From the NCBI GenBank assembly GCA_903916255.1, contig CAIWVW010000004.1, positions 1 through 64,000 on the forward strand: DNA of 64,000 bases, read 5' to 3'. The notes below the pieces were generated by a model. That model saw only the letters and a program-made list of their open reading frames with translations, was not told the DNA's origin and made no database searches. Shown piece by piece: positions 39,397 to 61,422 of the stretch. Within the stretch, counting starts at the first letter, position 1, and the number at the start of each line of letters is the position of its first letter. The stretch comes from an uncultured Bacteroidota bacterium (GTDB lineage Bacteria; Bacteroidota; Bacteroidia; JABEUT01). A program made the position numbers and the translations under genes.

Positions 39397-39546
39397 TTAT
39401 TCAGTCGGAAAAAGCTGTTCTTTAAAATCCTTATTATCAAAGCCAAAAGCAATTCGCATTCCGGCGAAGATGCCGCTGTGGGTTGGAAATGCTTGGACGG
39501 CAAACGATTTTTGGGCAGTACTAAAAATATAATGCGCATGAAACAT
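39397..39546 (-). pseudogene. Possible 49-codon remnant of an outer-membrane gene
   Basis: The minus strand has an open frame from the ATG at 39546 to a TAA at 39397. It is shorter than the ORF track limit. The peptide contains FAVQAFPTHSGIFAGMRIAF, whose alternating pattern resembles a terminal barrel strand. There is no visible upstream domain. It may be the leftover end of a gene or chance. The ATG touches the operator-like motif of tal-pgi. Confidence 0.2.
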
Positions 39547-39580
39547 GTGAATTATGTAAAGTTTCCTGATAAATATGTAA
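39546..39580 (+). promoter_or_regulatory. Tandem 21-bp-phased motif upstream of tal-pgi
   Basis: AATTATGTAA (39550-39559) and AAATATGTAA (39571-39580) start exactly 21 bp apart, two helical turns, so both face the same side of the DNA. The first is part of TGTGAATTATGTAA. The same block, with the same 21-bp period, lies before tkt at 61372-61405. The second copy ends 49 bp before the tal-pgi ATG. It is probably the binding site of a shared regulator; the motif is seen, the role inferred. Confidence 0.55.
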
Positions 39581-39629
39581 GCATTAAAAGTAGTAATACC
39601 GCCATTTTTGTATTATATAAAACAACAGT

Positions 39630-42506
39630 ATGGGCACATTGATAGACTTGTTAAAATACGGGCAGAGTTATTGGTTGGATAATCTTACGCGGAAAAAGAT
39701 AACAAGCGGGGAACTAACAAAAAGATTGTCTGAACAAGGCTTGCGTGGCATTACATCAAATCCCAGTATTTTCGACAAAGCTATTTCTGCCGGTACCGAT
39801 TATGATGAACAGATTGCAGCGCTGGTAAAAGCAGGAAAAACACCCTTCCAGATTTATGATGCATTGACTGTGAAAGATGTTCAGGACGCCTGTGATATAT
39901 TGAAACCTGTGTTTGCCGACTCTGATGGCAAGGATGGTTTTGTGAGTTTGGAAGTATCGCCTTATTTAGCGCGAGATACAAAAGGCACAATAAAAGAAGC
40001 GCATAGATTATCGGTTGCCGTCGGGCGGCCGAATTGCCTGATAAAAATACCTGGAACACAGGAAGGCATTCCGGCTATTGAACAAATGCTTTATGAAGGG
40101 ATAAATATAAATGTTACACTGCTCTTTTCCGTTGAAAGATATGTTGAAATTGCGCAAGCTTACATTCGCGCTATCGAGCGCAGAATTGCCGTAGGCAAAC
40201 CTGTGAACCATATAATTTCGGTTGCAAGTATTTTTATCAGCAGGATTGATGTCCTTACAGATGAATTACTTGGGCAGCGAATTATTCCCTTGCACGAAGA
40301 TAGTGTGATTACCCATCCGGAATTCTTATCGGGTAAAGCGGGAGTTGCAACAGCCTGCTTGGCATATCAGCGGTTTAAAAAAATATTCAGCGGGGATGTT
40401 TGGGAAAAATTGGAGGCTAAAGGTGCTAATGTACAAAGGCCCTTGTGGGCAAGCACCAGCAACAAAGACCCATTGTATGATGACCTTCGTTATGTGGAAC
40501 CGTTAATTGGTAAAAACACCATTAACACGCTGCCGGACGAGACTATTGCCGCTTTTGCCAAACATGGGATTTTAAGAGAAAATGCTATTGAAGAAAGGGT
40601 TGAAGAAGCAAACAAATTCTTCATGGAATTGGAAAAGCGCGGAATTGGAATTGATTTTATCACACAGCAATTAGAGAATGAAGGCATTCAAAAATTTACC
40701 GATGCATATAATACGCTGATAAGTAATCTGGCAAATAAAAGATTGAAAATACTGGCAGATGAAGTTTCGGCGCAACAAATTAGTTTCGGAAAACTTGAAA
40801 AGGAAGTAAATACATCCTATGCATCGCTGGCGGAGAAACAAATACCCAGGCTCCTTTTTGCTGAAGATGCGAATCTTTGGAAAAAAGACATTCCGCAAAC
40901 AAAAGAAATTAGCCACCGCTTAGGTTGGTTGACATTGCCCGATAATTTTACTGAAAATACAGATGAACTCGTGACTTTTGCCATAAAGATTAAAGAGGAA
41001 GGCTATATATATGCTGTTTTGCTGGGTATGGGCGGAAGCAGCTTATGTTCCGAAGTGGCCCGCGAAACATTTGGCACTGCCGACGGGTTTCTTAAATTAT
41101 TCGTGTTAGATAATACGTCTCCGGAAGCAATACTGGAACTCGAGAATAAAATTGATATTGAGAAAACGCTCTTTATTGTTGCAAGCAAATCGGGCAACAC
41201 AGAAGAAACATTGAGTTTCTTTCACTATTTCTACAATGAATTAGAAAATAAAGGGGAGGAAAAACCCGGGAATAATTTTGTAGCAATTACCGACGACGGT
41301 ACTCCATTAGTAAAAATTGCTGAACAATATAAGTTCAGGAAAGTATTCGTTAACAACCCTGACCTTGGGGGGCGTTATTCTGTGTTATCCGATTTTGGTT
41401 TACTTCCAATGGCCTTGATGGGAGTAGATATTAAGGCGTTGTTATCAAGTGCCAAAAAAATGGAAAACAGTTGCGACAGTGTTCCGACGGAAGCTAATCC
41501 CGGAATAAGTTTAGGAGTGGTATTAGGTATTTGCCAAAAATATGGTCGTGATAAGGTAACATTCGTTTTATCTTCTTCAATAAGTTCCTTTGGTTATTGG
41601 GTGGAGCAACTGCTGGCGGAAAGTACCGGCAAAGAAGGAAAGGGATTGATTCCTGTAAATGGTGAACAATTGGGTGCTCCTGAAGTCTATGGAAACGACC
41701 GAATATTTATCCACATGTATCTCCCGACGGATAATAATGAAGAAGACGAAAATAAAATTAAAGCGCTTGAGGAAGCGGGGCATCCCATAGTACGGATTCA
41801 AGTGGCAAATAAAATTGCATTAGGTGCAGAATATTATCGTTGGGAAATTGCCGCAGCCATTGCAGGGATAGTAATAGGCATCAATGCTTTCGACCAGCCC
41901 AATGTAGAGGAAAGTAAAAAGAACACAAGCCATCTGCTTGAAGGATGGGCAAAAGAAGGCGCATTTAAGAAATCGGACCCGCTCTTAAAAGTGGAAGATA
42001 TCTCTATTTATGGCGGAAAAAGGGCAGAACAGATTGGTCCCAAATACCATGAAACAATAGGAGAATTTGTCAACAGTTTTACTGCACAGGCAAAGCCGGG
42101 CGACTATATCGCTTTACTTCCCTATTTTCTGATGACTGAATACCGCACTGTACTCCTGCAAAAATGGAGACAGGAAATGAGGGACGAATTAAAAGAAGCG
42201 ACAACATTATTAAATGGCCCGCGCTATCTGCACTCCACAGGCCAATTACACAAAGGCGGCCCGGATACCGGATTGTATATTATACTAATCGGGGAGGACG
42301 AAGAAGATTTAGTAATCCCCAATGAAAAATTCGGATTTGCAACTTTGCATCAGGCGCAAGCGCTTGGCGACTTCCGTTCATTGGATGATAAGGGGCGAAG
42401 GGTAATTCGCATTCATTTAGGTAAAGATATTGATGCAGGGCTTAACAAAATGCATTTATCAATAAGGGCTGCAAATAAGCAACCTGTGTTACAAGAAGTG
42501 GTATGA
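39630..42506 (+). CDS. tal-pgi: Bifunctional transaldolase / glucose-6-phosphate isomerase
   Basis: A 958-residue fusion. Residues about 1-370 are transaldolase: QGLRGITSNPSIFDKAI, then LIKIPGTQEGIPAIEQ with the Schiff-base Lys, and PLWASTSNKDPLYDD. Residues about 400-950 are phosphoglucose isomerase: LGMGGSSLCSEV, VASKSGNTEETLSF, GGRYSVLSDFGLLP and a C-terminal catalytic region. The transaldolase exchanges C3 units among sugar phosphates, and the isomerase converts glucose-6-P to fructose-6-P. Such fusions are known in other bacteria. It is the first gene of the oxidative pentose phosphate operon, and its stop overlaps the next start (ATGA). The tandem motif upstream suggests specific control. 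Confidence 0.96.
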   Translation: MGTLIDLLKYGQSYWLDNLTRKKITSGELTKRLSEQGLRGITSNPSIFDKAISAGTDYDEQIAALVKAGKTPFQIYDALTVKDVQDACDILKPVFADSDGKDGFVSLEVSPYLARDTKGTIKEAHRLSVAVGRPNCLIKIPGTQEGIPAIEQMLYEGININVTLLFSVERYVEIAQAYIRAIERRIAVGKPVNHIISVASIFISRIDVLTDELLGQRIIPLHEDSVITHPEFLSGKAGVATACLAYQRFKKIFSGDVWEKLEAKGANVQRPLWASTSNKDPLYDDLRYVEPLIGKNTINTLPDETIAAFAKHGILRENAIEERVEEANKFFMELEKRGIGIDFITQQLENEGIQKFTDAYNTLISNLANKRLKILADEVSAQQISFGKLEKEVNTSYASLAEKQIPRLLFAEDANLWKKDIPQTKEISHRLGWLTLPDNFTENTDELVTFAIKIKEEGYIYAVLLGMGGSSLCSEVARETFGTADGFLKLFVLDNTSPEAILELENKIDIEKTLFIVASKSGNTEETLSFFHYFYNELENKGEEKPGNNFVAITDDGTPLVKIAEQYKFRKVFVNNPDLGGRYSVLSDFGLLPMALMGVDIKALLSSAKKMENSCDSVPTEANPGISLGVVLGICQKYGRDKVTFVLSSSISSFGYWVEQLLAESTGKEGKGLIPVNGEQLGAPEVYGNDRIFIHMYLPTDNNEEDENKIKALEEAGHPIVRIQVANKIALGAEYYRWEIAAAIAGIVIGINAFDQPNVEESKKNTSHLLEGWAKEGAFKKSDPLLKVEDISIYGGKRAEQIGPKYHETIGEFVNSFTAQAKPGDYIALLPYFLMTEYRTVLLQKWRQEMRDELKEATTLLNGPRYLHSTGQLHKGGPDTGLYIILIGEDEEDLVIPNEKFGFATLHQAQALGDFRSLDDKGRRVIRIHLGKDIDAGLNKMHLSIRAANKQPVLQEVV

Positions 42507-43126
42507 AGCAGAAAAAAATCACGACTTTATTTTTGGATATAGGAGGCGTTTTGCTCACCAATGGCTGGGGGCAAATGGCACGCACTAAGACTGTGGCCCA
42601 TTTTAAACTTGACAAGGATGAGGTAAATGAGCGGCATCACTTAACGTTCGATACGTATGAAGAAGGGAAATTAACACTCACCGAGTATTTGAAAAGGGTA
42701 ATCTTTTATGAGAAAAGAAAGTTCTCGGAAAATGATTTTACAAAGTTCATGTTCAATCAATCTATTGCCTATCCTGATACAATTGCATATTTTAAAGAAA
42801 TTAAAAAGCGGTATACCCTCAAAGTAATTGCTGTGAGTAATGAAGGAAGGGAATTAAATGCTTACCGCGTTAAAAAATTTAAACTGAATGAGTTATTCGA
42901 TGCTTTTATATCTTCTTCTTATGTTCACCTCCGCAAGCCGGATATGGACATATTCCGTATGGCAAGCGATATTTCACAAACCCTACCGGAGAATGCCCTT
43001 TTTATTGATGACAGGCTGATGTTTGTTCAAGTAGCGCAAACCATGGGCATTAACGGAATACATTATGAGGGGCTGGAAAAACTAAAAACAGAATTGAAAG
43101 CATTTGTGCTTACAAGCGCAAAATAA
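42503..43126 (+). CDS. HAD-superfamily phosphatase (YihX-like)
   Basis: A 207-residue haloacid dehalogenase-type hydrolase. Motif I reads FLDIGGVLLT, so the usual second Asp is replaced by Gly, as in the DxGxV branch that includes the alpha-glucose-1-phosphatase YihX. VIAVSNEGRELN is motif II, the Lys of motif III is in LRKPD, and FIDDR is motif IV. It starts 4 bp inside the tal-pgi end (ATGA overlap), so the two proteins are translated in step. A sugar-phosphate substrate fits its neighbours, but it is inferred. Confidence 0.85.
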   Translation: MKQKKITTLFLDIGGVLLTNGWGQMARTKTVAHFKLDKDEVNERHHLTFDTYEEGKLTLTEYLKRVIFYEKRKFSENDFTKFMFNQSIAYPDTIAYFKEIKKRYTLKVIAVSNEGRELNAYRVKKFKLNELFDAFISSSYVHLRKPDMDIFRMASDISQTLPENALFIDDRLMFVQVAQTMGINGIHYEGLEKLKTELKAFVLTSAK

Positions 43127-43144
43127 TTTAAGCATATAAATAAT

Positions 43145-44584
43145 ATGACAGAAGCTAAATATGATTACGGGATGATAGGGTTGGGCACAATGGGGCGCAA
43201 CCTTGTTTTGAATATAACCGACCATGGGTATAGTGTGGCGGGGTTTGATAAGGACTCTTCGCAAGTGGAACTTTTAAAAAAGGATAGCGGCGACAGGAGT
43301 ATATATGCTTCTTCTGTATTAGAAGAATTTGTAGGTGCATTGAAGGCGCCGAGGGTAGTTATGTTACTTGTTCCTGCCGGGAAAATTGTAGATGAAGTGA
43401 TTCAGGAATTGAAACCATTGTTATCCGGCGATGATTTACTGATGGATTGTGGCAATTCTCATTTTACGGACACGAATACCCGGATGGAGGAACTGGCGAA
43501 GTCAGGTATTCACTTTATGGGAGTCGGCATTTCCGGAGGCGAATCTGGTGCGCGGTATGGGCCGAGTATTATGCCCGGCGGGCCAAAAGATATTTACAAA
43601 CATGTTGCCCCCATGCTGGAAGCTATTTCCGCAAAATTTGCAGGGGCACAAGATATTGTGCCCGAACCTTGTGTAACATGGCTTGGGCCGGGTTCCGCAG
43701 GGCATTATGTAAAAATGGTGCATAATGGTATTGAATATGGAATCATGCAACTTATTTCGGAAGTATACCATTTATTGAAAGTGGCCGGAAAAATGAATAA
43801 TGATGAGTTACACGAAGTTTTTTCAGAATGGAATAAGGGGATGCTTCTTTCATTTTTAATAGAAATTACGGCTGATATTTTTGCTCAAAAGGATGCACTG
43901 ACAGACAATAGCCTTGTTGATATGATTCTGGATAGTGCACATCAAAAAGGTACAGGAGGATGGACTTCCGAAGATGCTATGAAATTACAAGTACCTCTTC
44001 CGGTTATAGATATTGCTGTTTCCATGCGCGATTTATCGGCCTATAAAAAAGAGCGTGAAGCCGCCGCACAAAAATTGGAAGGTCCCGGATATAGGTTTGA
44101 AGGTGATAAAAATGCATTAGTAACCTGGCTTGAACAAGCGCTTTATTTTTCAATGATTACAACCTATGCGCAGGGTATGTCTTTATTACATTTTGCATCC
44201 AAAGAATATAAATACGAATTAAAATTAGAGGACATTGCGAGCATTTGGAGAGGCGGATGCATCATACGTTCCTCCATATTGGATGATATAAAATCTGCTT
44301 TCTCCCGCCAACCTGATTCAGCAACTATGTTGATGGATGAAAAGCTTTCGTTGAAATTAATGCAAGCGCAAATCGCAACCCGTAAAATAATCCAAATTGC
44401 TGTGGATACAGGAATCCCGGCTTCTGCAATGATGGGTTCACTGGCTTATTATGACAGTTATCGCAGCGCATGGCTGCCAGCAAATCTGATACAGGCGCAG
44501 CGCGATTATTTCGGTGCGCATACATATGAACGTAATGACCGGGAAGGAACTTTCCATACGAAGTGGAACCAAGAAAATAAATAA
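43145..44584 (+). CDS. gnd: 6-phosphogluconate dehydrogenase, decarboxylating
   Basis: A 479-residue enzyme of the oxidative pentose phosphate pathway. It converts 6-phosphogluconate to ribulose-5-phosphate with CO2 and reduced dinucleotide. The Rossmann motif is [37 protein letters not shown] is the substrate loop. [21 protein letters not shown] holds the catalytic Lys, and YFGAHTYER the C-terminal part of the active site. It is the full-length dimeric type. It lies 18 bp after the HAD gene and 1 bp before the start of zwf. Confidence 0.98.
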
Positions 44585-44585
44585 T

Positions 44586-46097
44586 ATGAACACACAGGCA
44601 AATACAGGTCCCACAATTATAATTATCCTCGGAGCAACGGGAGATTTGGCCTGGCGGAAATTGATTCCCGCTTTTTACAACCTCTATTTGGATAAATGGA
44701 TACCCGACGAGTTTGCCGTTATCGGCATTGGTCGCGGGAAAATGTCAGATAAGGAATTTCAAAACCATTTACATGAAGGGGTAGATAAAAACTCGCGGAG
44801 AGGTAAATCGAAAAAGAATGAATGGGATAATTTCGCAAAATACCTCACCTACCATAAAGGCGAATTTAACGCGGATTCCACCTATTCGGAGGTAGAAAAG
44901 CAAATAAAAATTCTTGAAAAAAAATGGAAAGTTGTTGCAACCAAAATATTTTACCTGGCTGTTCCGCCTAATTCATTTGAAGAAATCGCATTAAAATTAG
45001 GTGCTTCCGGGCTTGCTAAAAATAAACTGAAAAGCCGTATTGTAATTGAAAAGCCGTTCGGGCATGACCTCGATAGCGCAAAGCATCTGAATGATTTGTT
45101 ACACGGAATTTTTGAAGAATGCCAGATTTACCGTATCGACCATTATCTCGGAAAAGAGACCGTACAAAATATACTTGCCTTTCGCTTTGCCAATGCCCTG
45201 TTTGAGCCCACATGGAACCGGAATTATATTGACAGTGTTCAGATAACGGTATCCGAACAATTAGGCGTAGAAAACAGGGGCAATTATTATGAAACTGCCG
45301 GCGCGCTTCGCGATATGATACAAAACCATCTGCTGCAATTATTTTGCCTCATTGCTATGGAGCCGCCTGTTTCTTTTGAAGCCGATGAAGTGCGAAACCG
45401 GAAGGTGGATGTGTTAAACGCCATCCGTAAAATCCGCCCGGAAGAAGTCCATCAAAATGCTGTGCGCGGCCAGTATGGCGCAGGCTGGATACAAGGTAAA
45501 AAAGTAAAAGGATACCGGCAAGAGCCCGATGTAAGTAAAACCTCGACGAAAGAAACATTTGCTGCCGTAAAACTTTTTATAGATAACTGGAGATGGCAGG
45601 GAGTGCCCTTTTACTTGCGCACAGGCAAGCGGATGAATGAAACAATTTCCGTTATTACCATACAATTCAGGCCGGTGCCCCATCAATCATTTCCGGCAGA
45701 AGCTACAGGCAACTGGCAACCGAACAGGCTTGTATTGAATCTGCAACCGCACATGGGTATTCGTATGCGCTTCCAGGCAAAACGTCCCGGACTTAAAATG
45801 ATTCTCTATCCTGTCGATATGCAATTCAACTATAACGAATCCTACCATTCGGGAACTCCCGAAGCGTATGAAACTTTGCTGTTGGATATTATGGAAGGTG
45901 ACTCCACGCTCTTTATGCGTGCCGACCAGGTGGAAGCCGCATGGAAAGCGCTTATGCCAATTATCGACTCATGGGAAACAAACCCTTCCGTCAACTTTCC
46001 CAACTATGAAGCTGGCATGCAAGGGCCGGAAGATTCGGAAGCGTTGATTGCAAAAGACGGACATAGTTGGGTTATAATGCCAACGGAAAAGAGTTGA
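44586..46097 (+). CDS. zwf: Glucose-6-phosphate 1-dehydrogenase
   Basis: A 503-residue enzyme that makes 6-phosphogluconolactone and NADPH or NADH, the entry to the oxidative pentose phosphate branch. Start at ATG 44586 ([26 protein letters not shown]), because the longer ORF-track start runs inside gnd. The nucleotide motif is [11 protein letters not shown], and [15 protein letters not shown] holds the substrate-binding and catalytic His-Asp region. Normal length. It starts 1 bp after the gnd stop. The pgl gene follows after 60 bp that contain a short reading frame. Confidence 0.98.
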
Positions 46098-46131
46098 AAG
46101 TGAAAAGTTAAAAGGAGAAATTTTAAACTTT

Positions 46132-46161
46132 ATGAACTTTATAACTTTAGAAACTTTATGA
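46132..46161 (+). CDS. Possible 9-codon leader peptide of pgl
   Basis: ATG at 46132 opens a 9-codon frame (MNFITLETL) whose TGA overlaps the pgl ATG as ATGA. An AGGAGA lies 13 bp before its ATG. A 14-bp direct repeat, AAACTTTATGAACT, occurs at 46125-46138 and again at 46151-46164, covering both start codons. It could couple ribosome entry to pgl. No further evidence supports it. Confidence 0.3.
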   Translation: MNFITLETL

Positions 46162-46889
46162 ACTCGGTTGACGTCTTTCAATCAATAGATGCGCTGAGGG
46201 AAGCCGTTGCTGAATATATTATAACGGTTTCAAAAAAATCCATTGCTGAAAGAGGCAGGTTCACAATCGCACTTTCGGGTGGGGATACGCCCCAAAAATT
46301 ATATGCACTGTTAGCTAAAACACCCTACTCTGAACAGATAGAATGGAAAAAAACTTTTGTTTTTTGGGGCGATGAGCGCTGGGTTCCTTTCGATGACAGG
46401 CGGAACAATGCGTATCAGGCAAAATCAATTTTGCTTGATAAAGTTACTATTCCGGCATCCAACATTCACCGTATCCCTGTTAATTTATCACCTAATCAGG
46501 CGGCAATTAAATACGAAAAAGAACTACGGGCTTTTTTTGGAAATGAACCAATTCAATTTGACATGATACTGCTTGGCCTTGGCGAGAACGGGCATACAGC
46601 CTCTCTTTTCCCCGGTACAAAAGTAATTCATGAACATGCGGAAGGTGTAAGGTTCGTTGAAATGAACCCGCCGATTGGCGGGCGAATTACCATGACAGCC
46701 GCTTTAATTAACCAAGCGCATCACATACTTTTTCTTGTAACCGGAGAAAAGAAAGCGGTTATTTTAGAAAAAATTTTGGATGATTCATACCAACCCAATC
46801 TATATCCTGCGCAGCTTATAAAACCCCTCCATGGAGATTTAATTTGGTTTGCAGACCAGGAAGCGGCATCGCTGATTAAGCAGTTTTAG
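46158..46889 (+). CDS. pgl: 6-phosphogluconolactonase
   Basis: A 243-residue DevB-type enzyme that hydrolyses 6-phosphogluconolactone to 6-phosphogluconate. ALSGGDTPQKLYALL binds the phosphate, FWGDERWVPFDDRRNN is the family signature, and LLGLGENGHTASLFPGT contains the conserved catalytic His region. The length is standard. It is the last gene of the tal-pgi/HAD/gnd/zwf/pgl operon. The ATG at 46158 lies in a repeated 14-bp block and overlaps a 9-codon upstream frame. It converges on the ApeA-like gene. Confidence 0.96.
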   Translation: MNSVDVFQSIDALREAVAEYIITVSKKSIAERGRFTIALSGGDTPQKLYALLAKTPYSEQIEWKKTFVFWGDERWVPFDDRRNNAYQAKSILLDKVTIPASNIHRIPVNLSPNQAAIKYEKELRAFFGNEPIQFDMILLGLGENGHTASLFPGTKVIHEHAEGVRFVEMNPPIGGRITMTAALINQAHHILFLVTGEKKAVILEKILDDSYQPNLYPAQLIKPLHGDLIWFADQEAASLIKQF

Positions 46890-46961
46890 GGTTTACTAGA
46901 AGATGAATGTTGAACAATTTTTGTTTTGAAACAGGGTAATAGATATGCCTAAAACTAACCT

Positions 46962-48281
46962 TTATATTAAAGTCAACCTATATAATTTATCACTAATCGT
47001 TATTTCTTTTATACCTAATTCTTTTGCTACCAATACGTAAAGCAGTTTACGGACTTGGTTTGATAAATCTCGAAGCTCTTCCCCCTTCAAAACATCTTTA
47101 TCAAAATCTCCAAAATGAGTATAATAGTTTCTAGATTTCGTAAACTTTGTTTCCCAACCATCTTGAAGGTCTAACTCAACTAATGTGGCCGGATTCAATT
47201 CTTTACAAAGTGCATTTACTCTTTCCCGTAAAGTGGGAGATTTAATAAATGAAAAACAATTATATATCCTTTTTATATGCCTTTTCGGTGCGCCTATATT
47301 TTTAACTTTTTGCATCCACTTATCCATCTCTTTCACATAGGTAAGCTTATAATCTTTTCTTAATTTTCGATGAAACGTTTCTATCGCTCTTGCAATATTT
47401 AGAAATCTAACTTCAGGGCTCAAGTAGTAGTTATTAAATTCCATAATCAAAATATCGATAACTTGCCTAATCTCCTCGTACAATCTATCCCAATTTTTAA
47501 TAACACTGGGTAAATATTCCTTTATCGTTTTAAAATCAATAAACGGCGCATGGTGCGTATCCCATTTTAAACTTTTCTCTGAATTTAAATCGACAAAATA
47601 TACTCTATATCTTTCACCATTGTTATCGAAAATAGAAATCTCTGTAAATGCAGAATAACTATCAGATAATAATTGAAAAAAGGTTCTATACTTATAAACT
47701 ATCTCAAGCAATACGTTAAATTCCTTTCCTAATAAAGATTCGATTATTATTGAGGATATAAGGTCAAATTCCAACTTATTGTATACGCTTTTTTCCATTA
47801 TTTCACTTTTAAATGTAATTGAGCTGTTGGAAATATCAAAAGTCAGTGTGGATGTATTAGGGACAGTTATGGTCCTTGAGGGTAACTTCTTTTTAGTTTT
47901 ATAATCAACTTTAGGAAACCATGCACTTAAATTAACAAGACTGAATGAGATTCTTTTGAATAAATTATCACTGGGAAATTTTCTTGAACTTAACATATAG
48001 TCAGCATCGAAAAGAGTATTGAAATACCTGTCATTTACAAGGTTAGGTGCTCTCCTTCGTGTATTATAGAACGTGTAATAACCAAATTCACACTCCGCAT
48101 ATAATGCCATGTTATCTATAAAGTCAATAGGTTCCATTAAGTCAATGAAAATCCCATTATTATGTTGATATGTAAATTTCCCTGGAATTTTAACTGCATT
48201 TTGTTCTAGTGAAGTATAAAATGTACAATTAGCGTGTTCAATCTCTTCTGAGATAGGATATGTCTTAAAATTTAATTGCAT
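46962..48281 (-). CDS. ApeA-like HEPN protein, candidate antiphage RNase
   Basis: A 439-residue protein with the layout of ApeA defence proteins. The N-terminal part (about 1-280) is beta-rich (FTYQHNNGIFIDLMEP, SLVNLSAWFPKVDY). The helical HEPN domain follows (about 285-430; RFLNIARAIETFHRKL). Its RNYYTHFGD at about residue 384 fits the RNxxxH catalytic motif of HEPN ribonucleases. ApeA is known as a single-gene antiphage system; this copy would cut RNA when triggered. The gene is visibly richer in A+T than its metabolic neighbours, which suggests transfer. It sits alone at the convergence of two sugar-phosphate operons. A palindrome overlaps its putative promoter. Confidence 0.75.
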   Translation of the reverse strand: MQLNFKTYPISEEIEHANCTFYTSLEQNAVKIPGKFTYQHNNGIFIDLMEPIDFIDNMALYAECEFGYYTFYNTRRRAPNLVNDRYFNTLFDADYMLSSRKFPSDNLFKRISFSLVNLSAWFPKVDYKTKKKLPSRTITVPNTSTLTFDISNSSITFKSEIMEKSVYNKLEFDLISSIIIESLLGKEFNVLLEIVYKYRTFFQLLSDSYSAFTEISIFDNNGERYRVYFVDLNSEKSLKWDTHHAPFIDFKTIKEYLPSVIKNWDRLYEEIRQVIDILIMEFNNYYLSPEVRFLNIARAIETFHRKLRKDYKLTYVKEMDKWMQKVKNIGAPKRHIKRIYNCFSFIKSPTLRERVNALCKELNPATLVELDLQDGWETKFTKSRNYYTHFGDFDKDVLKGEELRDLSNQVRKLLYVLVAKELGIKEITISDKLYRLTLI

Positions 48282-48293
48282 GAATTTTATTTT

Positions 48294-51300: not shown

Positions 51301-54300
51301 ATAGAGCTTGCAAGTTTACCATACAATTGCGCATCCGCTTCCGACGCATTTATTTGCCGCAACACTATCTGGCTGTGTGTCCAAGATAATTCAAACACAC
51401 GGTCTTTATGCGGTTTGTCCTGGTATTTATCAATCAGGTTGCGGCAGGCATCCTGAGTATCGGCAATACCTATAACCATATCAATCGTAACTTTTTCTTC
51501 CGGTTCAAGAACAATTTTGTAACGGATTGCAACAATCGGGTCCAATACCGAACCCTGGTTTCCTGAAAGCGGTCCCGGTTTATTCATCACCTGCGGATTC
51601 ACAGTAGAATTTCTGCGACCAATAAATTCCAGGCGGTCGGTTTCGTAGGATACTTCCACTTTGTCTTTACCATGCAATGACATCAAATGGAACATCCACG
51701 GCAATTGTTCATCTGCGGAGCGCGGCCTGCGGGTGCAAAGGATTGCATGCTGCGACGGAATAATTTCGGTTTGCACGAAAAGGTTGCTGAATGCGGGCTG
51801 CATCAGGTCGGATGCTGCCGGTGCAAGCACTACTTCGGCATAGCTTGTAACTTCAATAATTCGGCGGACATCGGAACTGTTGGTAATAACAACCCTCCTT
51901 ATTTCAATATCATCTTCCGGTGAAACTACAATTTCTGTATGTGTTTCTATTTCGCTGTTGTTGTTTGTGAAATCTACACGCCCCTGCGAAAAAGCCGCTT
52001 CGTATTTATCGCCTTTTTTCAGTGTAGGCTGGTGTGCGTTTGACCAAAATGTTTCACTTTTCAAATCGCGTATATAGCAAAATGTCCCCCAGTTATCACA
52101 GGTGCCATCCTCGCGCCAGCGTGTAACGGCAAGGTTTTTCCAACGGCTGTATCCGCCTCCTGCATTTGTTACCATCACATGGTATCTGCCGTTCGATAAT
52201 AATTGCACTTCGGGAATTGGAGTGTTGGGAGTATTGATGATTCTGGTTTCAGTACCGCTCACAACATAATTTACATCTGTTATGTCTGTAGTATGCGCAA
52301 AGAATGTAGTTGCTTTAGGAATACGTTCTTGCAGTAATAGAAGTGTTGCCATAAACTGTGGCTCCGCCTCAAATAATTTTTGCATAGGTTGGTCAAGCAG
52401 CAGATAGGCCAGCGACAGCAGGCTCATCCCCTGATGATGCGCCATGAATGAATACACGATGGCATTGGTTTGGCCCGGAGCCAACCGGGATGGTGTGTAA
52501 TCTATTGCTTCATAAAACCCATATCGCCCTTCAAACCCTTTTTTGGCAAGCAGTTCCAGGTTTTCACATGCTTTTTCTGGCGCAACCATCAAAGCAAGCG
52601 CAGATGCATAGGGGGCAATAACGGAATCTTCTTCCAGTCCGCGTTTTAAACCAAGCCCCGGTGCGCCAAATGCACGATACTGGTAATTGGAATTAGCGTT
52701 TACCGTATTATATCCCGATTCAGAAATCCCCCATGGCAAGCCTGATTTTTTCCCGTATTTAATTTGCCATTCCACCGCTGCATTATACGTTTGGTCGAGC
52801 AGTGTATTTTCATAGGTGGGCATCACTAAAAGTGGCATAAGGTATTCGAACATCGAACCGCTCCAAGAGAGAAGAATAGGGTCTCCATTCACGTTAGTAA
52901 GCAAGCGCCCCAATGCAAACCAACTCTGTTCAGATAGTTTTCCTTGTGCAATACCAATAAAGGTACATAGCCTGGCTTCTGATGCAAGCAAATCGTAATA
53001 ACTTGCATCCATTCGGTGTTCCTGCACATTATACCCAATCGTAAACAAAGAGCTTGATTTATCCAATAAGAAATCCCATTCCATATCGGCCAGTTCATGA
53101 CTTTGCCGGGCAAGGGTTTCAGCTAAACTAATCCTTTCCTCCGCAAGCGCAATTGATTTTGATAAAGAAATTTTAAATGCTTCCAGCCACTCATTTTCGG
53201 AAGAAGTATTGCTTTCAGTTTTAGAATGGCTTACTATATTTTGAAGTTCCAGCGCAGTTTCCAATAATTCGAGCAATGTTGAATTTGTGTCCATTGAAAC
53301 AAGATATATGAATTTCGACGGGGCATTCATCAGCATGGCCCATGGCGCAAAAATTTGAAAATATTCATTGCTTTGCTCTATTTGCTTTTGTAATAATATC
53401 TTCCACCAGTAGATTTCACTCTGCACATCATTATTTAACTTATCAAAAATGGAACTGAATTTATTTGTTAATGCTTCTATATGATAAATTACTTCGTGCC
53501 GTGTAATCAGGTCAAGCTTGCAGATGTTATCCAAATCGATTTTAAATTGTTGCAAAAGCGCTTTATCCTTTTCCTCAATGGTGTCAATAAGCACGTATAA
53601 CGTATCCCGCAACCCTTCAAATAAATTCACGCCAATTATTTTTTGGTGCGGTATGGCAAGCAACCCTTGTTTGAGTATAATCAGATATCCGGCAAGGTTT
53701 CCGCTATCAACAGTGGATATATACTTTGGCAATAACGGGCTTAATGTTTCAGTATCATACCAATTATAAAAATGGCCCCTGTAGCGTTCCATTTTTTTCA
53801 TAGACTCTATTGTCTTTCTTGTTCGGTCAATAAATTCTCCGGTGGTAATATAGCCGAAATCCGAGGCAGATAAATTGGCAAGCAATGAAATGCCAATATT
53901 GGTTGGGGAAGTGCGGTGCGCTATTAATGAAACAGGTTGTTCCTGGAAATTATCAGGCGGCAAAAAATTATCTTCCTGCACAACAAACCGTTCAAAATAG
54001 CTCCAGGTTTTCCTTGCAACTTTCCTTAGGAAGATATTTTGTTCATCGGTAAGTGCTGCCACCGGTTTCGCAATCGGCCTGCTTATTCTCCATGTTATAA
54101 TGGGTGTAATAAACCACAGGAACAATATAGGACTGACAATGATTAACTTTCCGGGAGAATAAAATGCTATGTAGAAAAGTAATGTTGAAGCAAGAAATGG
54201 TTCAATCCACATGGAAGAATAACTATAAACTAATCGCTTTTGGTAGCTGGCTGACGAATTTGATGATGGGTTCCATTCAAGAAGTTTTTTCCGCGTTATG

Positions 54301-57089
54301 AGCATTCGGAAAAGCGTTAGCAGTATGGCCTTCACATTTGAATATGCTTCGTAGGGCAGGCATATCAACATAAATAAAGTTCTTACAGAAACATCCCAAA
54401 TGTTGTGAATTGAATTTCGTATGTGATGCGTGAAAATTACATTTTTGGGTTTATGGGCAATATCCCAAATGGAATTAATTATAATAGGGGTAAGAATGAT
54501 ACCTGAAACAATTATTGTCCATAATAAAGAAGACGGCAGCACAATCCAGGCTGCAACCAGTAAGACCGTAAGTGTTATAGGAACAAGGCTTCGCCGTACA
54601 TTGTCGAATATTTTCCAACGCGATAAAGCGGATACCGGGTTTTTATGCCAATGCCGGTCCGACCCCGGAACAAAAGGTAAAAACCATGAAAAAATCTGCC
54701 AGTCACCGCGAACCCAGCGCGAGAACCTTTTCATATCGGCGCTATAACTCATAGGATATTTCTCAAACAATTGGACATCACTCAACAAGCCTGACCGCAC
54801 ATAACACCCCTCTAATAAATCATGGCTAAGAATGCTGTTTTCCGAAAATTTTCCTTCCAATACTTTTCTGAAAATATCAACCTCATAAATCCCTTTTCCT
54901 ATAAAGGAGCCCTCCTCGAATAAATCCTGATAAACATCGGATGATGCCCTTGTATAAGGGTCAATGCCGGGTACATTCCCATGCATGCGGGCATATACCG
55001 AACCGCTGATTCCGGGCAGGCTCACTGTTACTCTCGGTTGCAGGATGCCATATCCTTTTGTTATGCGTTTCTTACTTTCGTCATACCAGGCGTGGTTCAA
55101 CGGATGCGCCATTGACCCAATTAATTTACAGGCTGTACCAAGCGGCAATTCTGTATCAGCATCCAGTGTAATTACATATTTTATAAGCGGGAAAATGGAT
55201 TGGTCACCAATAATGTGTGAAAAATTTTCTTTTAATTCTCCGCGCAATAAAGAGTTCAACGCAGATAATTTGCCGCGCTTTCTTTCATACCCCATCCATG
55301 CATTTTCCTTAGGGTTCCAAAGCCGTGGACGATGAAAAAGAAAAAATAAATCATTTTTTTCTCTCCCGTATTTTTTGTTCAGCTCTTCAACTCTCTGCCG
55401 GGTAAGGCTAATGAGTGCTTCATCTTCCGGAAGTGTTTCCTGCGGTGCATCAGTAAAATCAGTTAATAAACCAAAATGTAAATTATTATTTCTATTTGCC
55501 AGAAAACGGATTTCTAATGCTTCAACCAGAACTTCTATTTCCGCAGCGTTAGCAAGCATTACGGGGATTACAACCAAGGTTCGGAATTCGGGCGGAATAT
55601 CCTTCGAGAAATCCATTCTGGGCAACAAATGCGGCTTAACCAATAAAGTAGAAATAAAATTAACAACTGATATTGCAAGCTGACTTATGCAGAGCAGTAG
55701 AAGTAAGGCGCTTGCGGCAAGAAGCCAATAGCTTTTTAAATCAGAATGGGCTCTCAGTAATATAGCTGCACTTAGTATTGCTGTAATTAATACGATTGAA
55801 CCAAAATAGACTATGAAGGCCTGCCGTTTCAATACTTGCCGCATTATTTGCATTGGCGGCTCGTGCATTTTTGCCTTGGTTTTGGTCAATTTCAGGCCAT
55901 CTCCAATCAGGTAATAACCAACATGCGATGTGCGTCCGCCTTTATGGTTTACGGATATATTTTCATGCGTTAATTGTATTGCAATCTTTGCAATTTCATG
56001 CTCCGATAGCTTGCTTTTCTTTGCAATGTCCTCTATAACGTGCCGGTACCTGTCGCGCGTGGCAAAATCCATTTGACTGTAAATTCCATTGGTATCTTGC
56101 CGCAATGTTTGTTCGACGATACTGTGCTTTTCGACAAAATCGCGCCAATCTACAGCGCCAATTAATCGAAGGCTGCCAATACTGTTGCTCATGGAAACCT
56201 GGTCAGCCGCCTGTTTTTGAATTTCCGCACTTACCAATTCTGAACTTGTCAGTCCGCTTTCCGCCAATTGCTGTTCAATCCAGTTAAGAGAGAGTGCCAA
56301 TTCCGGGCCTTTTCCGCGCAACTGGCGGGTTAATTCAGATACAAATGCGCTCCCGATAGGCGGATTGGAGCGCGCCATATCGGCAATTACCAATATCAGA
56401 TTTTTAGGGTCTTTTTCGGAAGTGTCAATCATTTGTCCGGCCCAGTATTCTGCGAGGTTCCTGTCGACCCTGTCGATTGCAATACGTGATGAAACACGTC
56501 GGAGGTTTTCTATCAATGCAAGGCGAAGCATAATGGGTATGGCCCATAATTCACCTAATTGCAAATTGGTGATGGTTTGGTAAGCCGTTATAAAACCGCC
56601 GAGGCTTTCCATATCTACCCTTCCGTCGCTGTGGGAAATTATTTGCAGAACGATGTCGTATATGCGTGTCAGCCCAACAGAATTACCCGTTACAAGTTGA
56701 GGCAAATCCTCGCTGTAATCTTTTGGAAAGTGCGTTTTAGCATTGCGGATATGTTCTTCTATAAGGTAAAAATTGTCAATCAGCCATTCACCTGCGGGTG
56801 TAATCTGGTATTTTCTTTTTATGGAATCAGCCAGAAGCTTCCGTACCTCGCTCAAAAGGATTTCATTATTTGAAAGCCGTTTGAGCAGATGGTCTTTCGA
56901 GGGCTTTGTACTTAATTTATGAATTCCCGCAAGGGCTTTTCCAAAACGCTCCATCTGGTCAGAACTGAATAATTCGGCCCGCAGAGGCTCCTCGTTCTGG
57001 TAACTAAGCTTGGAGTTTTTCGTTTGAAAAAGGCCCCTCATATTTGCTATGAGTTCATGGGCCGCAGGTATAAATTTTATTTTAGCCAT
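48339..57089 (-). CDS. ndvB: Cyclic beta-glucan synthase (NdvB/Cgs-like; GT84 + GH94)
   Basis: A 2916-residue inner-membrane enzyme. TM segments at about 415-480 precede a GT84 catalytic domain (about 500-830; ITLDADTELPLG near 646, then SILSHDLLEGCYVRSG and FSRWVRGDWQ). More TM segments (about 840-1010) are followed by a glycoamylase-like domain (about 1270-1530; GLPWGISESGYNTVNANSNYQ is split here by short gaps only). Two beta-sandwich plus GH94 phosphorylase-like parts complete the protein, with GAGDWNDGYDKVG near 2576. In known enzymes this set elongates and cyclises beta-1,2-glucan from UDP-glucose and fixes its length. It starts 3 bp after pgm, which supplies glucose-1-phosphate. It is unusually large. 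Confidence 0.93.
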   Translation of the reverse strand: MAKIKFIPAAHELIANMRGLFQTKNSKLSYQNEEPLRAELFSSDQMERFGKALAGIHKLSTKPSKDHLLKRLSNNEILLSEVRKLLADSIKRKYQITPAGEWLIDNFYLIEEHIRNAKTHFPKDYSEDLPQLVTGNSVGLTRIYDIVLQIISHSDGRVDMESLGGFITAYQTITNLQLGELWAIPIMLRLALIENLRRVSSRIAIDRVDRNLAEYWAGQMIDTSEKDPKNLILVIADMARSNPPIGSAFVSELTRQLRGKGPELALSLNWIEQQLAESGLTSSELVSAEIQKQAADQVSMSNSIGSLRLIGAVDWRDFVEKHSIVEQTLRQDTNGIYSQMDFATRDRYRHVIEDIAKKSKLSEHEIAKIAIQLTHENISVNHKGGRTSHVGYYLIGDGLKLTKTKAKMHEPPMQIMRQVLKRQAFIVYFGSIVLITAILSAAILLRAHSDLKSYWLLAASALLLLLCISQLAISVVNFISTLLVKPHLLPRMDFSKDIPPEFRTLVVIPVMLANAAEIEVLVEALEIRFLANRNNNLHFGLLTDFTDAPQETLPEDEALISLTRQRVEELNKKYGREKNDLFFLFHRPRLWNPKENAWMGYERKRGKLSALNSLLRGELKENFSHIIGDQSIFPLIKYVITLDADTELPLGTACKLIGSMAHPLNHAWYDESKKRITKGYGILQPRVTVSLPGISGSVYARMHGNVPGIDPYTRASSDVYQDLFEEGSFIGKGIYEVDIFRKVLEGKFSENSILSHDLLEGCYVRSGLLSDVQLFEKYPMSYSADMKRFSRWVRGDWQIFSWFLPFVPGSDRHWHKNPVSALSRWKIFDNVRRSLVPITLTVLLVAAWIVLPSSLLWTIIVSGIILTPIIINSIWDIAHKPKNVIFTHHIRNSIHNIWDVSVRTLFMLICLPYEAYSNVKAILLTLFRMLITRKKLLEWNPSSNSSASYQKRLVYSYSSMWIEPFLASTLLFYIAFYSPGKLIIVSPILFLWFITPIITWRISRPIAKPVAALTDEQNIFLRKVARKTWSYFERFVVQEDNFLPPDNFQEQPVSLIAHRTSPTNIGISLLANLSASDFGYITTGEFIDRTRKTIESMKKMERYRGHFYNWYDTETLSPLLPKYISTVDSGNLAGYLIILKQGLLAIPHQKIIGVNLFEGLRDTLYVLIDTIEEKDKALLQQFKIDLDNICKLDLITRHEVIYHIEALTNKFSSIFDKLNNDVQSEIYWWKILLQKQIEQSNEYFQIFAPWAMLMNAPSKFIYLVSMDTNSTLLELLETALELQNIVSHSKTESNTSSENEWLEAFKISLSKSIALAEERISLAETLARQSHELADMEWDFLLDKSSSLFTIGYNVQEHRMDASYYDLLASEARLCTFIGIAQGKLSEQSWFALGRLLTNVNGDPILLSWSGSMFEYLMPLLVMPTYENTLLDQTYNAAVEWQIKYGKKSGLPWGISESGYNTVNANSNYQYRAFGAPGLGLKRGLEEDSVIAPYASALALMVAPEKACENLELLAKKGFEGRYGFYEAIDYTPSRLAPGQTNAIVYSFMAHHQGMSLLSLAYLLLDQPMQKLFEAEPQFMATLLLLQERIPKATTFFAHTTDITDVNYVVSGTETRIINTPNTPIPEVQLLSNGRYHVMVTNAGGGYSRWKNLAVTRWREDGTCDNWGTFCYIRDLKSETFWSNAHQPTLKKGDKYEAAFSQGRVDFTNNNSEIETHTEIVVSPEDDIEIRRVVITNSSDVRRIIEVTSYAEVVLAPAASDLMQPAFSNLFVQTEIIPSQHAILCTRRPRSADEQLPWMFHLMSLHGKDKVEVSYETDRLEFIGRRNSTVNPQVMNKPGPLSGNQGSVLDPIVAIRYKIVLEPEEKVTIDMVIGIADTQDACRNLIDKYQDKPHKDRVFELSWTHSQIVLRQINASEADAQLYGKLASSILFTNPVFRADPAILINNHRGQSGLWGYSISGDLPIVLLKIEKQTNMQLVKQLIQAHAYWRLKGLAVDLVIWNEEHGGYRQVFQNEIQALIPAELTDRPGGVFVRASDQISNEDRILFQTVARINISDNGGTLADHVKRKPLSKLVIPYITKPEKYQPDLTPIVVPTDLIFHNGLGGFTPDGLEYVIVVDNKNKTPAPWVNVIANPNFGTVVSESGSAYTWTENAHELRLTPWNNDPVSDSGGEAFYIRDYETGQFWSTTLLPSGGETPYITRHGFGYSVFEHMEDGIYTEMTVYVDIDAAIKFTVLKIKNQSGRARKLSVTGYTEWVLDNNRMKAAMYTHTEVDPDSGALFAKNPYNTEFSSRVAFFDVDFIKKTFTSDRTEFIGRNGTLQNPDAMSRMKLSGRIGLALDPCAAIQVPFDLADGEENEIIFRLGAGKTAAEASATARQFRGSAVAHDALERVKQNWNHIMGALKVETPDAAINMITNGWLTYQTISSRLWGRSGFYQSGGAFGYRDQLQDVLSLLHTVPHLARGQILLSASRQFKEGDVQHWWHPPIGNGVRTRCSDDYLWLPLATALYVSTTGDTGVLDENVSFIEGRQLNPGEESYYDTPTKSNTSVKLYDHCVQAIKHGFTFGKHGLPLIGAGDWNDGYDKVGNEGKGESVWMAFFLYDVLIRFEGIARLYASKSPDGGEGDLFAEECKKQAQQLKENIDKNAWDGEWYKRAWFDNGTPLGSSVNEECKIDSIAQSWSVISGAGSPERVNTAMESAYKNLVKKDAGIIQLLEPPFDKSNLNPGYIKGYVPGVRENGGQYTHAAVWMIMAFAKLGDNKRVWELLNMINPINHGKTAEAIAIYKVEPYVLAADVYAREPHAGRGGWTWYTGSAGWLYQLIVEYFLGMKQDANKLKFAPCVPEEWETFKIHYRYWNTMYHICFTQKKLEVGSEQLAVEMQVIVDGVEQADKTITLADDGVEHNVEVKLNIQNTLEV

Positions 57090-57092
57090 ACG

Positions 57093-58733
57093 TTATACTA
57101 AAGCAGCATTGACAATATCCTGCGCTTCATCAATAATTTTCTTTACATGGTCCTTTCCTGAAAAACTCTCCGCATAAATCTTATAAATATCTTCCGTTCC
57201 GGATGGGCGGGCTGCAAACCAGCTGTTTTCTGTAACAACCTTTACACCCCCAATTGATGCATTGTTCCCCGGGGCTACAGTGATGATATTTTTTATTTCT
57301 TCTCCCGCTAAATCTTTATGTTTTATTTGGGAAGCGGAAAGTTTTTTCAGCTTTTCTTTTTGCTGGGGTGTTGCTTTTGCTTCAATCCTTTCATATACAG
57401 GTTCACCTAACTCTTTTGTAAGTTCATTATATAATATGCCGGGGTCTTTACCCATTTTTGCAGTAATCTCTGCCGAGAGTAATGCCGGAATAAAGCCATC
57501 CTTATCGGTGGTCCACACACTTCCGTCTAAACGGGAGAATGATGCACCTGCGCTTTCTTCCCCGCCAAAACAAAGTGATTTATCCAGCAAACCTTCAACG
57601 AACCATTTGAAACCAACAGGCACCTCATACAGTTTTCTTCCAAGCTTTGAAGTGATGCGGTCAATTAACTGTGTGCTTACAACAGTTTTGCCTACTGCTG
57701 CCGCTTTCGACCACCCCGGACGATTTTGCAGGAGATAAAAAACAGCAACCGATAAATAATGATTGGGGTTTAATAGCCCTGCGCTTTTTGTAACAATTCC
57801 ATGCCGGTCGTGGTCCGTGTCGCAGGCAAAAGAAATATCAAAATAGTCTTTCATTTCAATCAACCTTTGCATGGCGTAAGGAGATGAGGGGTCCATACGG
57901 ATTTGCCCATCCCAATCCACGGTCATGAAACTAAATGTAGGGTCGACTATTTTATTTACGACAGTCAAATCCAAATGATAGCGCTCTGCAATCGGCTCCC
58001 AGTAGTGCACTCCGGCACCACCAAGCGGGTCAACGCCCATTTTTATTTTCGACTTACGGATGGCATCCATGTCAATTACATTCCCAAGGTCATTTATATA
58101 GGTATGTAAATAATCATGCCGATGTGTGGTAGAAGCATGGAGCGCTTTATCAAAAGAAATCCGTTTCACTTCCTTAAGTTTATTCTCCAGTAATTCGTTT
58201 GCTTTTGCCTCAATCCAATTGGTGACTTCAGTTCCTGCCGGCCCGCCATTTGGCGGATTATATTTAAAACCTCCGTCGTCAGGCGGATTATGCGATGGCG
58301 TAATTACAATACCATCCGCCAAACCGATTTTCCTTCCGTAATTATATTTTAAAATAGCGTGGGAAATAACGGGAGTAGGGGTGTATTCATCACCTTCGGC
58401 AATCATTACTTCCACGCCATTGGCCGCAAGCACTTCCATGGTAGTTGCAAAAGCAGGAGCCGAGAGCGCATGGGTATCGAAGCCCAAATATAATGGCCCA
58501 TCGAATTTTTGTATTTTCCTATAGAGACAAATAGCTTGTGTAATTGCAAGAATATGGTTTTCGTTAAAAGCATTATCTAAAGAGGAACCCCGATGGCCGG
58601 ATGTTCCGAATGAAACACATTGAGAAGGGGTGGAAGGGTCCGGTATTCCCGCATAATAGGCTGTTAAAAGCCTGGGTACATTTACCAGCATATTTTGTTC
58701 CGCCGGTTTTCCGGCATAAGGGCTTATTTCCAT
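57093..58733 (-). CDS. pgm: Phosphoglucomutase (alpha-D-glucose phosphate-specific)
   Basis: A 546-residue enzyme that interconverts glucose-6-P and glucose-1-P, the precursor of UDP-glucose. ATG at 58733 ([14 protein letters not shown]) overlaps the rpiB stop as TAATG. The ORF-track start 37 codons earlier lies inside rpiB and adds unrelated sequence. VSFGTSGHRGSSL, the phosphoserine loop ITPSHNPPDDGGFKYNP, the metal loop FACDTDHDRHGIVT and CFGGEESAGASF are in order. The 546-residue length is that of the E. coli Pgm type. It sits between rpiB and the beta-glucan synthase, joining the pentose phosphate pool to glucan production. Confidence 0.96.
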   Translation of the reverse strand: MEISPYAGKPAEQNMLVNVPRLLTAYYAGIPDPSTPSQCVSFGTSGHRGSSLDNAFNENHILAITQAICLYRKIQKFDGPLYLGFDTHALSAPAFATTMEVLAANGVEVMIAEGDEYTPTPVISHAILKYNYGRKIGLADGIVITPSHNPPDDGGFKYNPPNGGPAGTEVTNWIEAKANELLENKLKEVKRISFDKALHASTTHRHDYLHTYINDLGNVIDMDAIRKSKIKMGVDPLGGAGVHYWEPIAERYHLDLTVVNKIVDPTFSFMTVDWDGQIRMDPSSPYAMQRLIEMKDYFDISFACDTDHDRHGIVTKSAGLLNPNHYLSVAVFYLLQNRPGWSKAAAVGKTVVSTQLIDRITSKLGRKLYEVPVGFKWFVEGLLDKSLCFGGEESAGASFSRLDGSVWTTDKDGFIPALLSAEITAKMGKDPGILYNELTKELGEPVYERIEAKATPQQKEKLKKLSASQIKHKDLAGEEIKNIITVAPGNNASIGGVKVVTENSWFAARPSGTEDIYKIYAESFSGKDHVKKIIDEAQDIVNAALV

Positions 58734-59218
58734 TAGTGTTTTAAATTTTGAGTTTTCTCGAGTTCCGCAACTTTTGCCAGGCGACGGATATGCCTTTCGA
58801 CATCGATGAATTTTGCAGCCAAAAAAATGGTTGTGAGTTTCCATGCAAGGGTGTGGTCAACAACGCGGCCGCCAAGGCACATCATATTCATGTCATCGTC
58901 TTCTACCCCTTGATTGGCTGAAAATTTTTCATTAATCAGGCAAGCCCTTACTCCATTCACTTTATTTGCGGCTATGCAAGCCCCGACCCCGCTGCCGCAA
59001 ATGGCTATGCCACGGGTAATCTCACCTTTTGCTATTGCAAAGGCAAGTGGAATTACATAATCAGGATAATCATCCTGCGGCTTCATTTCGCTGTCGCCAA
59101 AATCTATTACCTCATATCCTGCTTCATTCAGTTTCTCCAATAAGTATTCCTTCAGTTCAAATCCTGCATGGTCCGCTGCAATACCAATATGTTCTATTTT
59201 CTCCGGATGATTATTCAT
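58733..59218 (-). CDS. rpiB: Ribose-5-phosphate isomerase B
   Basis: A 161-residue enzyme that interconverts ribose-5-P and ribulose-5-[17 protein letters not shown] holds the first conserved Asp-His pair. [24 protein letters not shown] is the phosphate loop with the catalytic Cys, and [13 protein letters not shown] follows. The length is normal. Its start lies 8 bp inside the tkt end and its stop overlaps the pgm start, so tkt, rpiB and pgm are translated as one coupled unit. Confidence 0.96.
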
Positions 59219-61322
59219 GTTTATTCTTTTTTAATAATGCAATTGCACGCTCACAAATATTTTCAACGGTGAATCCGTATTCGCGCATCATTACTTCCCC
59301 GGGGGCTGAAGCACCGAAAGTATCAATGCCTATTACTTCCCCTTTATCGCCAACGTATTTATTCCAACCTTGGGTTACGCCTGCTTCAACCGCTATTCTT
59401 GTATGAATTGACGGGGGCAACACCGTATCACGGTATACTTGGGTTTGCGCTTCAAATAATTCCCAACTGGGCATGGAAACAACACGTACTGCAATATTCT
59501 GTTCACTTAGTTTTTCCTGTGCTTCTACAATTAAATGGACTTCTGAACCGGTTGCTATAAGTATTAATTCCGGATTAACATCCGGGGCATATGATAGAAT
59601 ATACGCACCAAAACGAAGCCAGTCCGCAGAAGCGAATTTTTTCCTGTCGAGCGTTGGCAAATCTTGACGCGTTAAAATTAATGCCACAGGAGCTTTACTT
59701 GATTCTATGGCCATTCGCCATGCCATAGCAGTTTCATTAGCATCGCAAGGACGGATAACAATCAATCGTGGAATTGCGCGGAGGGCCGCAAGATGTTCTA
59801 TCGGTTGATGCGTTGGGCCATCCTCACCCATAGCAATACTATCGTGCGTAAAAACAAAAACGGTATTCAATTCCATTAATGCGGCAAGGCGAATTGCAGG
59901 GCGCATGTAATCTGAAAAAGTGAGGAATGTAGCGCAGAATGGGAGAATGCCGCCATGTGCAGCCATTCCGTTAGAAATGGAGGCCATGCCATGTTCGCGA
60001 ACGCCAAATTGCAAATTACGCCCGGCATAACTCCAGCCGCCTGCGGCAGAGCCTTGCAAATCGCCGACAGCCATAGTTGGGTTTTCAAAGTTCCCGGCAT
60101 CTTTAAGTTCTGTATATGTTGATGTATTTAAATCGGCGGAGCCGCCAATAAACCCGGGCAGGTTATGATAAAAAGCCTGCATAATTTTTCCGGAAGCAAC
60201 CCGCGTAGCCATTCCTTTAGCATCCGCAGGAAATTCAGGAATAGTTGCATCCCATTCGGGCGTAAGTTTTCCATTCATCAGATAAAAAAGTTCCTTGGCA
60301 AGCTCCGGGTATTCCTTTTTATATGTGGTAAATTTCTTTTCCCATTCTTTCCCTGACTGTTCTCCTTGCTTAATTGCTTTATGAAAATGAAGTTCTGCTT
60401 CCTTCGGAATTAAAAAAGAAGGTTCGACAGGCCAGCCCAAATTTTCTTTTGTCCGCTTTACTTCATCCACACCTAAAGGTGAGCCATGCGCCGAGCATTT
60501 GTCTTGCTTATTGGGTGAACCATAACCAATATGTGTGTGGACTAAAATCAGCGATGGACGTTCTGTTTCCAACTGGGCCGCCCGAATAGCATTCTCTATT
60601 GCGCCCAAATCGTTCCCATCTTCAATGGATTGCGTATGCCATCCATACGCTTCAAATCGCTTTGCATGGTCTTCCGTGAAAGTTACCGGAGTAGCGGATG
60701 CAAGCGTAATATGGTTATTGTCGTACAGATAAATTAATTTTCCGAGTTTCAGGTGGCCCGCAAGCGGAGCAGCTTCGGCAGACACACCTTCCATCAGGTC
60801 GCCGTCACTTACTATTCCGTAGGTGTAATGATTTATAATTTCATTTCCGTGTTTGTTGTAGCGTGCCGCAAGATAGGCTTCGGCTATTGCCATGCCCACA
60901 CCATTCGCGAATCCCTGTCCGAGCGGGCCTGTGGTAGTTTCAACGCCGGGTGTTAAACCCCGTTCCGGATGGCCGGGAGTTTTACTTCCCCATTGGCGAA
61001 ATTGTTTAATATCCTCTAACGATAAATCATACCCTGTTAGATGCAGTAAACTATAAAGCAACATGGAGCCATGTCCGGCAGACAATACAAACCTGTCCCG
61101 ATTAAACCACTGCGGATTTGCAGGATTATGCTGAAGGAACTTCGTCCATAATACATATGCCATAGGCGCAGCACCTAAGGGTAACCCCGGATGTCCGCTG
61201 TTAGCTTTTTGTATAGCATCAACAGAGAGAAAACGGATTGTGTTGATGCAAAGTTCATTCTGATTTATTTTGTTGCTTGCTGTTAACTGCTTACTATTTC
61301 TCTTTTTAATTTGTGTGTCCAT
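59211..61322 (-). CDS. tkt: Transketolase
   Basis: A 703-residue thiamine-diphosphate enzyme that moves C2 units between sugar phosphates. [19 protein letters not shown] opens the ThDP domain and [17 protein letters not shown] follows. [20 protein letters not shown] is the metal-ThDP motif, and [18 protein letters not shown] the pyrimidine domain. A short basic N-terminus ([13 protein letters not shown]) precedes the usual start. It is the first gene of the tkt-rpiB-pgm-ndvB operon. The shared tandem motif is centred about 66 bp upstream. Confidence 0.98.
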
Positions 61323-61371
61323 ATAGCACCCTTTAATTTTTATATAAAGGACTATAATTTCGGACGGGCAG

Positions 61372-61405
61372 ATGTTACATAATTTAGGTGGAATGTTGCA
61401 TAATT
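61372..61405 (-). promoter_or_regulatory. Tandem 21-bp-phased motif upstream of tkt
   Basis: On the minus strand AATTATGCAACAT (61405-61393) and AATTATGTAACAT (61384-61372) match at 12 of 13 positions and are 21 bp apart. The nearer copy ends 50 bp before the tkt ATG. The first copy with its flank, TGTGAATTATGCAA, matches the tal-pgi copy except at one base. This shared layout points to a common regulator. Confidence 0.6.
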
Positions 61406-61422
61406 CACACTTTTAAACCAAC

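Follow-up and report, generated by a model that had tools for sequence, protein, structure and literature searches.

The paired repeats that stand upstream of the tal-pgi and tkt operons in the window (the whole 64,000-nucleotide stretch that was analysed) most probably belong to a stress regulon that extends across Bacteroidota and would be activated by an AraC-family protein, two copies of which are predicted to bind the repeats, the pentose-phosphate operons having been added to it. In the mechanism that we propose, two copies of the activator would bind two direct repeats of about 15 bp, placed 21 bp apart between approximately −69 and −33. The bound pair would have two main consequences: i) it would replace a weak or missing −33 box and ii) it would bring RNA polymerase to the TAnnTTTG −7 box, which lies a constant distance away. 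The regulator would also activate its own gene together with the histidine kinase encoded behind it, and the pentose-phosphate operons may have joined the regulon here, plausibly for NADPH and glucan precursors under stress. That this candidate binds the site, that it activates and does not repress, and what signal induces the system are inferences from sequence. How Bacteroidota coordinate stress survival is poorly understood, and an operator, a regulator candidate and a list of targets make the question testable, all the more as the genera that carry the system include tractable ones such as Flavobacterium. The open-licence papers that we searched contain no earlier account of the motif or the regulon, and earlier work may exist elsewhere; the main text of the promoter map of F. 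psychrophilum (PMC9723704) mentions neither AraC nor a direct repeat.

Tandem operators upstream of tal-pgi and tkt

At both operons, the block TGTGAATTATGYAA is followed by a repeat exactly 21 bp further on (Table 1). A sequence-only reading had already described this arrangement, the cores being indeed 21 bp apart, and had placed the end of the second copy about 50 bp before the start codon, a distance that measures 49 bp for tal-pgi (ATG 39630) and 52 bp for tkt (ATG 61322). It had also seen the motif at none of the other promoters that it checked in the window, and this holds: there is no further full site within it, the runner-up being a half-site at 61497-61533 that reaches 16.1 bits, and half-sites by themselves occur there no more often than by chance (24 one-mismatch matches vs 30 expected). 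The proposal of a tandem or dimeric binding protein, which that reading drew from the spacing, is consistent with direct repeats two helical turns apart. The two window copies score 36.4 bits (tal-pgi) and 39.3 bits (tkt) with a site matrix that was trained on sites from the window's own genome, both window sites included, vs a maximum of 16.4 bits in 3.74 Mb of first-order Markov random sequence. A CRP-type reading of TGTGA was ruled out, since the second element is a direct repeat and not an inverted one.

Table 1. Position of the operators, predicted promoter elements and genes in the window, and of the regulator candidate elsewhere in the same genome
Feature	Position	Strand	Details
tal-pgi operator	39546..39582	+	sequence model E 9.7e-6
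tal-pgi block	39546-39580	+	TGTGAATTATGTAAAGTTTCCTGATAAATATGTAA
tal-pgi operator, half 1	39546-39560	+	TGTGAATTATGTAAA
tal-pgi operator, half 2 core	39571-39581	+	AAATATGTAAG; 21-bp phase
Predicted −7 element of tal-pgi	39603..39610	+	CATTTTTG; TAnnTTTG type
tal-pgi	39630..42506	+	bifunctional transaldolase/glucose-6-phosphate isomerase; first behind operator; NF007080, 1150.7 bits
HAD-family hydrolase	42503..43126	+	
gnd	43145..44584	+	6-phosphogluconate dehydrogenase
zwf	44514..46097	+	glucose-6-phosphate dehydrogenase; true start probably within this ORF
pgl	46158..46889	+	6-phosphogluconolactonase
ApeA-like HEPN protein	46962-48281	-	PF18739/PF18862
GH94 protein	48339..57089	-	cyclic beta-glucan synthase type; 2916 aa; last in tkt run
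pgm	57093..58844	-	phosphoglucomutase
rpiB	58733..59218	-	ribose-5-phosphate isomerase B
tkt	59211..61322	-	full-length transketolase
Predicted −7 element of tkt	61345..61352	-	GTCCTTTA; imperfect TAnnTTTG; offset as at tal-pgi
tkt operator	61373..61409	-	half 1 TGTGAATTATGCAAC; half 2 core AAATTATGTAAC; 21-bp phase; sequence model E 8.2e-6
tkt block	61375-61409	-	TGTGAATTATGCAACATTCCACCTAAATTATGTAA
Candidate AraC-family regulator	L021:8624-9235	minus	this genome

Geometry and spread of the operator

The operator is not restricted to the window. A pattern search followed by a sequence model built from 17 sites identified around 20 sites at E<0.02 in the 3.74-Mb assembly, 15 of them on a single contig (C145) around the gene of an AraC-family regulator and the rest present singly or as a divergent pair. 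Across Bacteroidota, 395 distinct sites were found; within the class, sites at E≤0.001 occur in 44 of 296 genomes, with a maximum of 23 in one genome. In 80 named Bacteroidota loci, which were fetched by way of the regulator gene and include Flavobacterium, Sunxiuqinia and Arcticibacter as well as MAGs labelled Mucilaginibacter, Paludibacter, Saprospiraceae and others, 227 sites of at least 22 bits were counted vs 0–1 for eleven control matrices, these being permuted or reversed versions of the site matrix. Together with the random-sequence maximum, the control matrices rule out a chance origin of the sites.

The architecture of these sites is very constant. When the first half alone was required, the second half was found at +21 in 145 of 153 cases, and each repeat is conserved along approximately 14–15 bp. 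Downstream of the sites lies the TAnnTTTG −7 box of the Bacteroidota main-sigma promoter, the consensus of which occupies positions −12 to −5 (PMC9723704). Its TTTG stands at offset 24 in 270 of the 395 sites, the offset also seen at tal-pgi, and one base nearer, at offset 23, in 36. Base frequencies within the box are 0.90 for A at d22, 0.98 for T at d25-d26, 0.82 for T at d27 and 0.72 for G at d28, while the opening T is poorly conserved (0.19 at d21). Taking the constant TTTG offset and the −12 to −5 numbering (PMC9723704), we place the site between about −69 and −33; therefore, repeat 2 sits where the −33 box would be, and the operator is one of direct repeats around two turns apart that overlap or abut the −35 region. 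Such a position would be that of an activator touching RNA polymerase. Two own-promoter sites of the regulator (L198 and L235) show an apparent phase of 20 bp rather than 21 bp. In another genome, G240, the sites (L144/L145/L146) are unusually alike outside the repeats, with the spacer CTCTTTTCAA and the −7 region GGTAATTTTGC, as if they had been copied recently.

This organization is like that of MtlR, a member of the AraC family whose site on PmtlE comprises about 37 bp with two 15-bp blocks at −72/−58 and −50/−36 (PMC4514859), and like that of AraC on araI1-araI2: in each case, a site of around 37 bp with two direct 15-bp blocks, separated by approximately two turns, lies just upstream of the −35 region. 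The AraC-type double helix-turn-helix makes two major-groove contacts (PMC6018408).

An AraC-family regulator candidate

The most likely regulator is an AraC-family protein, as judged from its linkage to the sites, the site in its own promoter and its co-occurrence with the motif. It has 190–200 aa and combines an HMA/Atx1-like N-terminal domain with a C-terminal AraC double helix-turn-helix (PF12833, 63.8 bits; PF00165, 47 bits in Pfam), and its AlphaFold model matches the DNA-binding domains of MarA, SoxS and AraC in Foldseek. In the model, the N-domain adopts a ferredoxin-like topology and resembles Atx1 copper chaperones; orthologues carry an invariant MVSxRC, in which the chaperone motif's first cysteine is replaced by a serine in all cases, the second cysteine being equally invariant. 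Unlike MtlR and AraC, which govern one catabolic operon and have a sugar-binding cupin, the candidate has this HMA/Atx1-like domain and many putative target promoters, which are of the Bacteroidota main-sigma type.

The promoter of the candidate gene in this genome carries a site of 39.4 bits. The own promoter has a site in 59 of 80 orthologues, mostly 47–61 nt before the start, and 20 of the 80 have no clear site there. A kinase gene lies downstream of the regulator in 63 of the 65 loci with enough sequence. No site was found at the regulator paralogues, namely two in this genome and those tested in its genus. A second HMA-AraC paralogue (MISNSC type; L058 in G000:C52 and L082 in G004) has about 42% identity and also lacks the operator. 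Many near-identical ELxIANKELxFQNxEKEKRAA repeats occur in the hybrid histidine kinase encoded after the regulator at L155:13099-17034 (-) (G096) and L280 (G196).

Regulator and motif tend to occur in the same genomes. Of the 11 genomes with at least five sites, 8 have an orthologue scoring 235 bits or more (1.2 expected, p=1e-6), as do 22 of the 44 genomes in which any site occurs, where 4.8 would be expected (p=6e-14). The test was made over 296 genomes and counts genomes and not independent events, so that the p-values are optimistic. Within the genus, both are present or absent together, a 99%-complete genome without the motif being also without the regulator. No orthologue was found in two genomes rich in sites, G196 (20 sites) and G240 (13 sites). 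The first counterexample is largely removed because its contig breaks in a repeat-rich kinase gene, the one that follows the regulator in a congener.

Could another protein bind the repeats? One possibility, which we consider improbable, is that a LytTR-type response regulator does so and that the AraC gene is merely one of its targets. LytTR regulators recognize 9-bp direct repeats 12 bp apart, hence with the same 21-bp period, and HdrR/BrsR systems are positively autoregulated (PMC6193735), as the own-promoter site suggests for the candidate; moreover, G240, without an AraC orthologue, has a LytTR gene inside its motif cluster. However, that gene has no match in any other fetched locus, and the clusters show no conserved LytTR gene. 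The repeats described here are also longer than, and different in sequence from, those of the ACCxCTTAx type (PMC6193735), and their distance to the promoter is another one, since LytTR repeats lie about 10 bp upstream of the −35 region whereas repeat 2 reaches about −35 itself. We give a similarly small chance to control by some other unlinked transcription factor or phosphorelay output, of which the AraC-kinase operon would be a co-regulated member. The orthologues without an own-promoter site, the absence of an orthologue in G240 and the many receiver-only proteins among the targets speak in favour of such a factor. The AraC gene may itself be under control of the regulon's master and not be that master. 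Nevertheless, the sole DNA-binding gene found to recur with the motif is the AraC orthologue, and no DNA-binding domain is present in the receivers and kinases that make up the rest of the signalling proteins examined from the clusters. A reading of the repeats as part of an alternative sigma factor's extended promoter, and not as an activator site, is very improbable. The rigid spacing to the −7 box argues for it; against it, that box has the usual TAnnTTTG form of the main sigma factor (PMC9723704), and what lies upstream is a block present in two copies, which a bound dimer would lead one to expect.

Target genes and the place of the pentose-phosphate operons

An ORF lies behind 386 of the 395 distinct sites. 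The biggest groups are the AraC regulator (69, a count inflated because the 80 loci were fetched by that gene), ice-binding-like secreted proteins (63) and CsbD (26), followed by OmpA-type lipoproteins (14), coiled-coil lipoproteins (12), receiver proteins (11) and outer-membrane barrels (10); YceI, YtxH, BON, Usp and Dps-like proteins form minor groups. With general stress proteins (CsbD, YtxH, YceI, BON, Usp, Dps-like, OmpA and others) among them, the targets have mainly stress and envelope functions and not functions in sugar metabolism. In this genome, the targets on C145 and elsewhere comprise CsbD, a small lmo0937-like membrane protein, OmpA, PAP2, DUF748, ice-binding/type IX-secreted proteins and HAD proteins, together with the AraC-family regulator, behind which a PAS hybrid histidine kinase of 1075 aa and a receiver protein are encoded. 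The site matrix also places many small proteins that lack annotation in a functional class.

The SigB regulons of Bacillus and Listeria overlap with this one in target types (CsbD, YtxH, Dps and universal stress proteins). The proposed controller differs from SigB in being no alternative sigma factor but an AraC-type activator of main-sigma promoters, and type IX-secreted ice-binding-like proteins are among the targets. Bacteroidota are not known to have sigma-S or SigB systems. We put forward, with slightly less than even confidence, that a large part of Bacteroidota runs its general stress response through an autoregulated AraC-type activator in place of an alternative sigma factor, that the Atx1-like domain, having lost its first metal-binding cysteine, may sense a thiol or metal state together with the partner kinase, and that the pentose-phosphate pathway was captured in this lineage.

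What do the pentose-phosphate genes do in such a regulon? The identities read from the sequence alone (zwf, pgl, gnd, tal-pgi, tkt, rpiB, pgm and the glucan synthase) were confirmed. The same reading suggested that one regulator may set the whole sugar-phosphate flow, and a regulator specific to both operons would explain why their sites are almost identical and stand equally far from the start codon; we rejected it as hardly tenable, since about 18 more copies stand before unrelated genes in this genome, an outcome that this reading had itself named as refuting it, no pentose-phosphate gene was found among the targets of the 395 sites outside this genome, and the distant tal-pgi homologues in which a site was looked for have none. 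In relatives from the genus, the tal-pgi fusion and a full-length tkt were not found at the threshold used, so that the comparison suggested for relatives met homologues that were either missing in the same form or without a site. As sites are absent from the pentose-phosphate homologues found elsewhere, the window operons would be recent recruits, the simplest reading being that this lineage alone added them to a regulon that is older, and it would thus have brought central carbon metabolism under stress control.

Between the two pentose-phosphate operons lies the gene of the ApeA-like HEPN protein, with a GC content of 30% vs 42–44% in the operons on either side, which is likely an inserted anti-phage defence gene.
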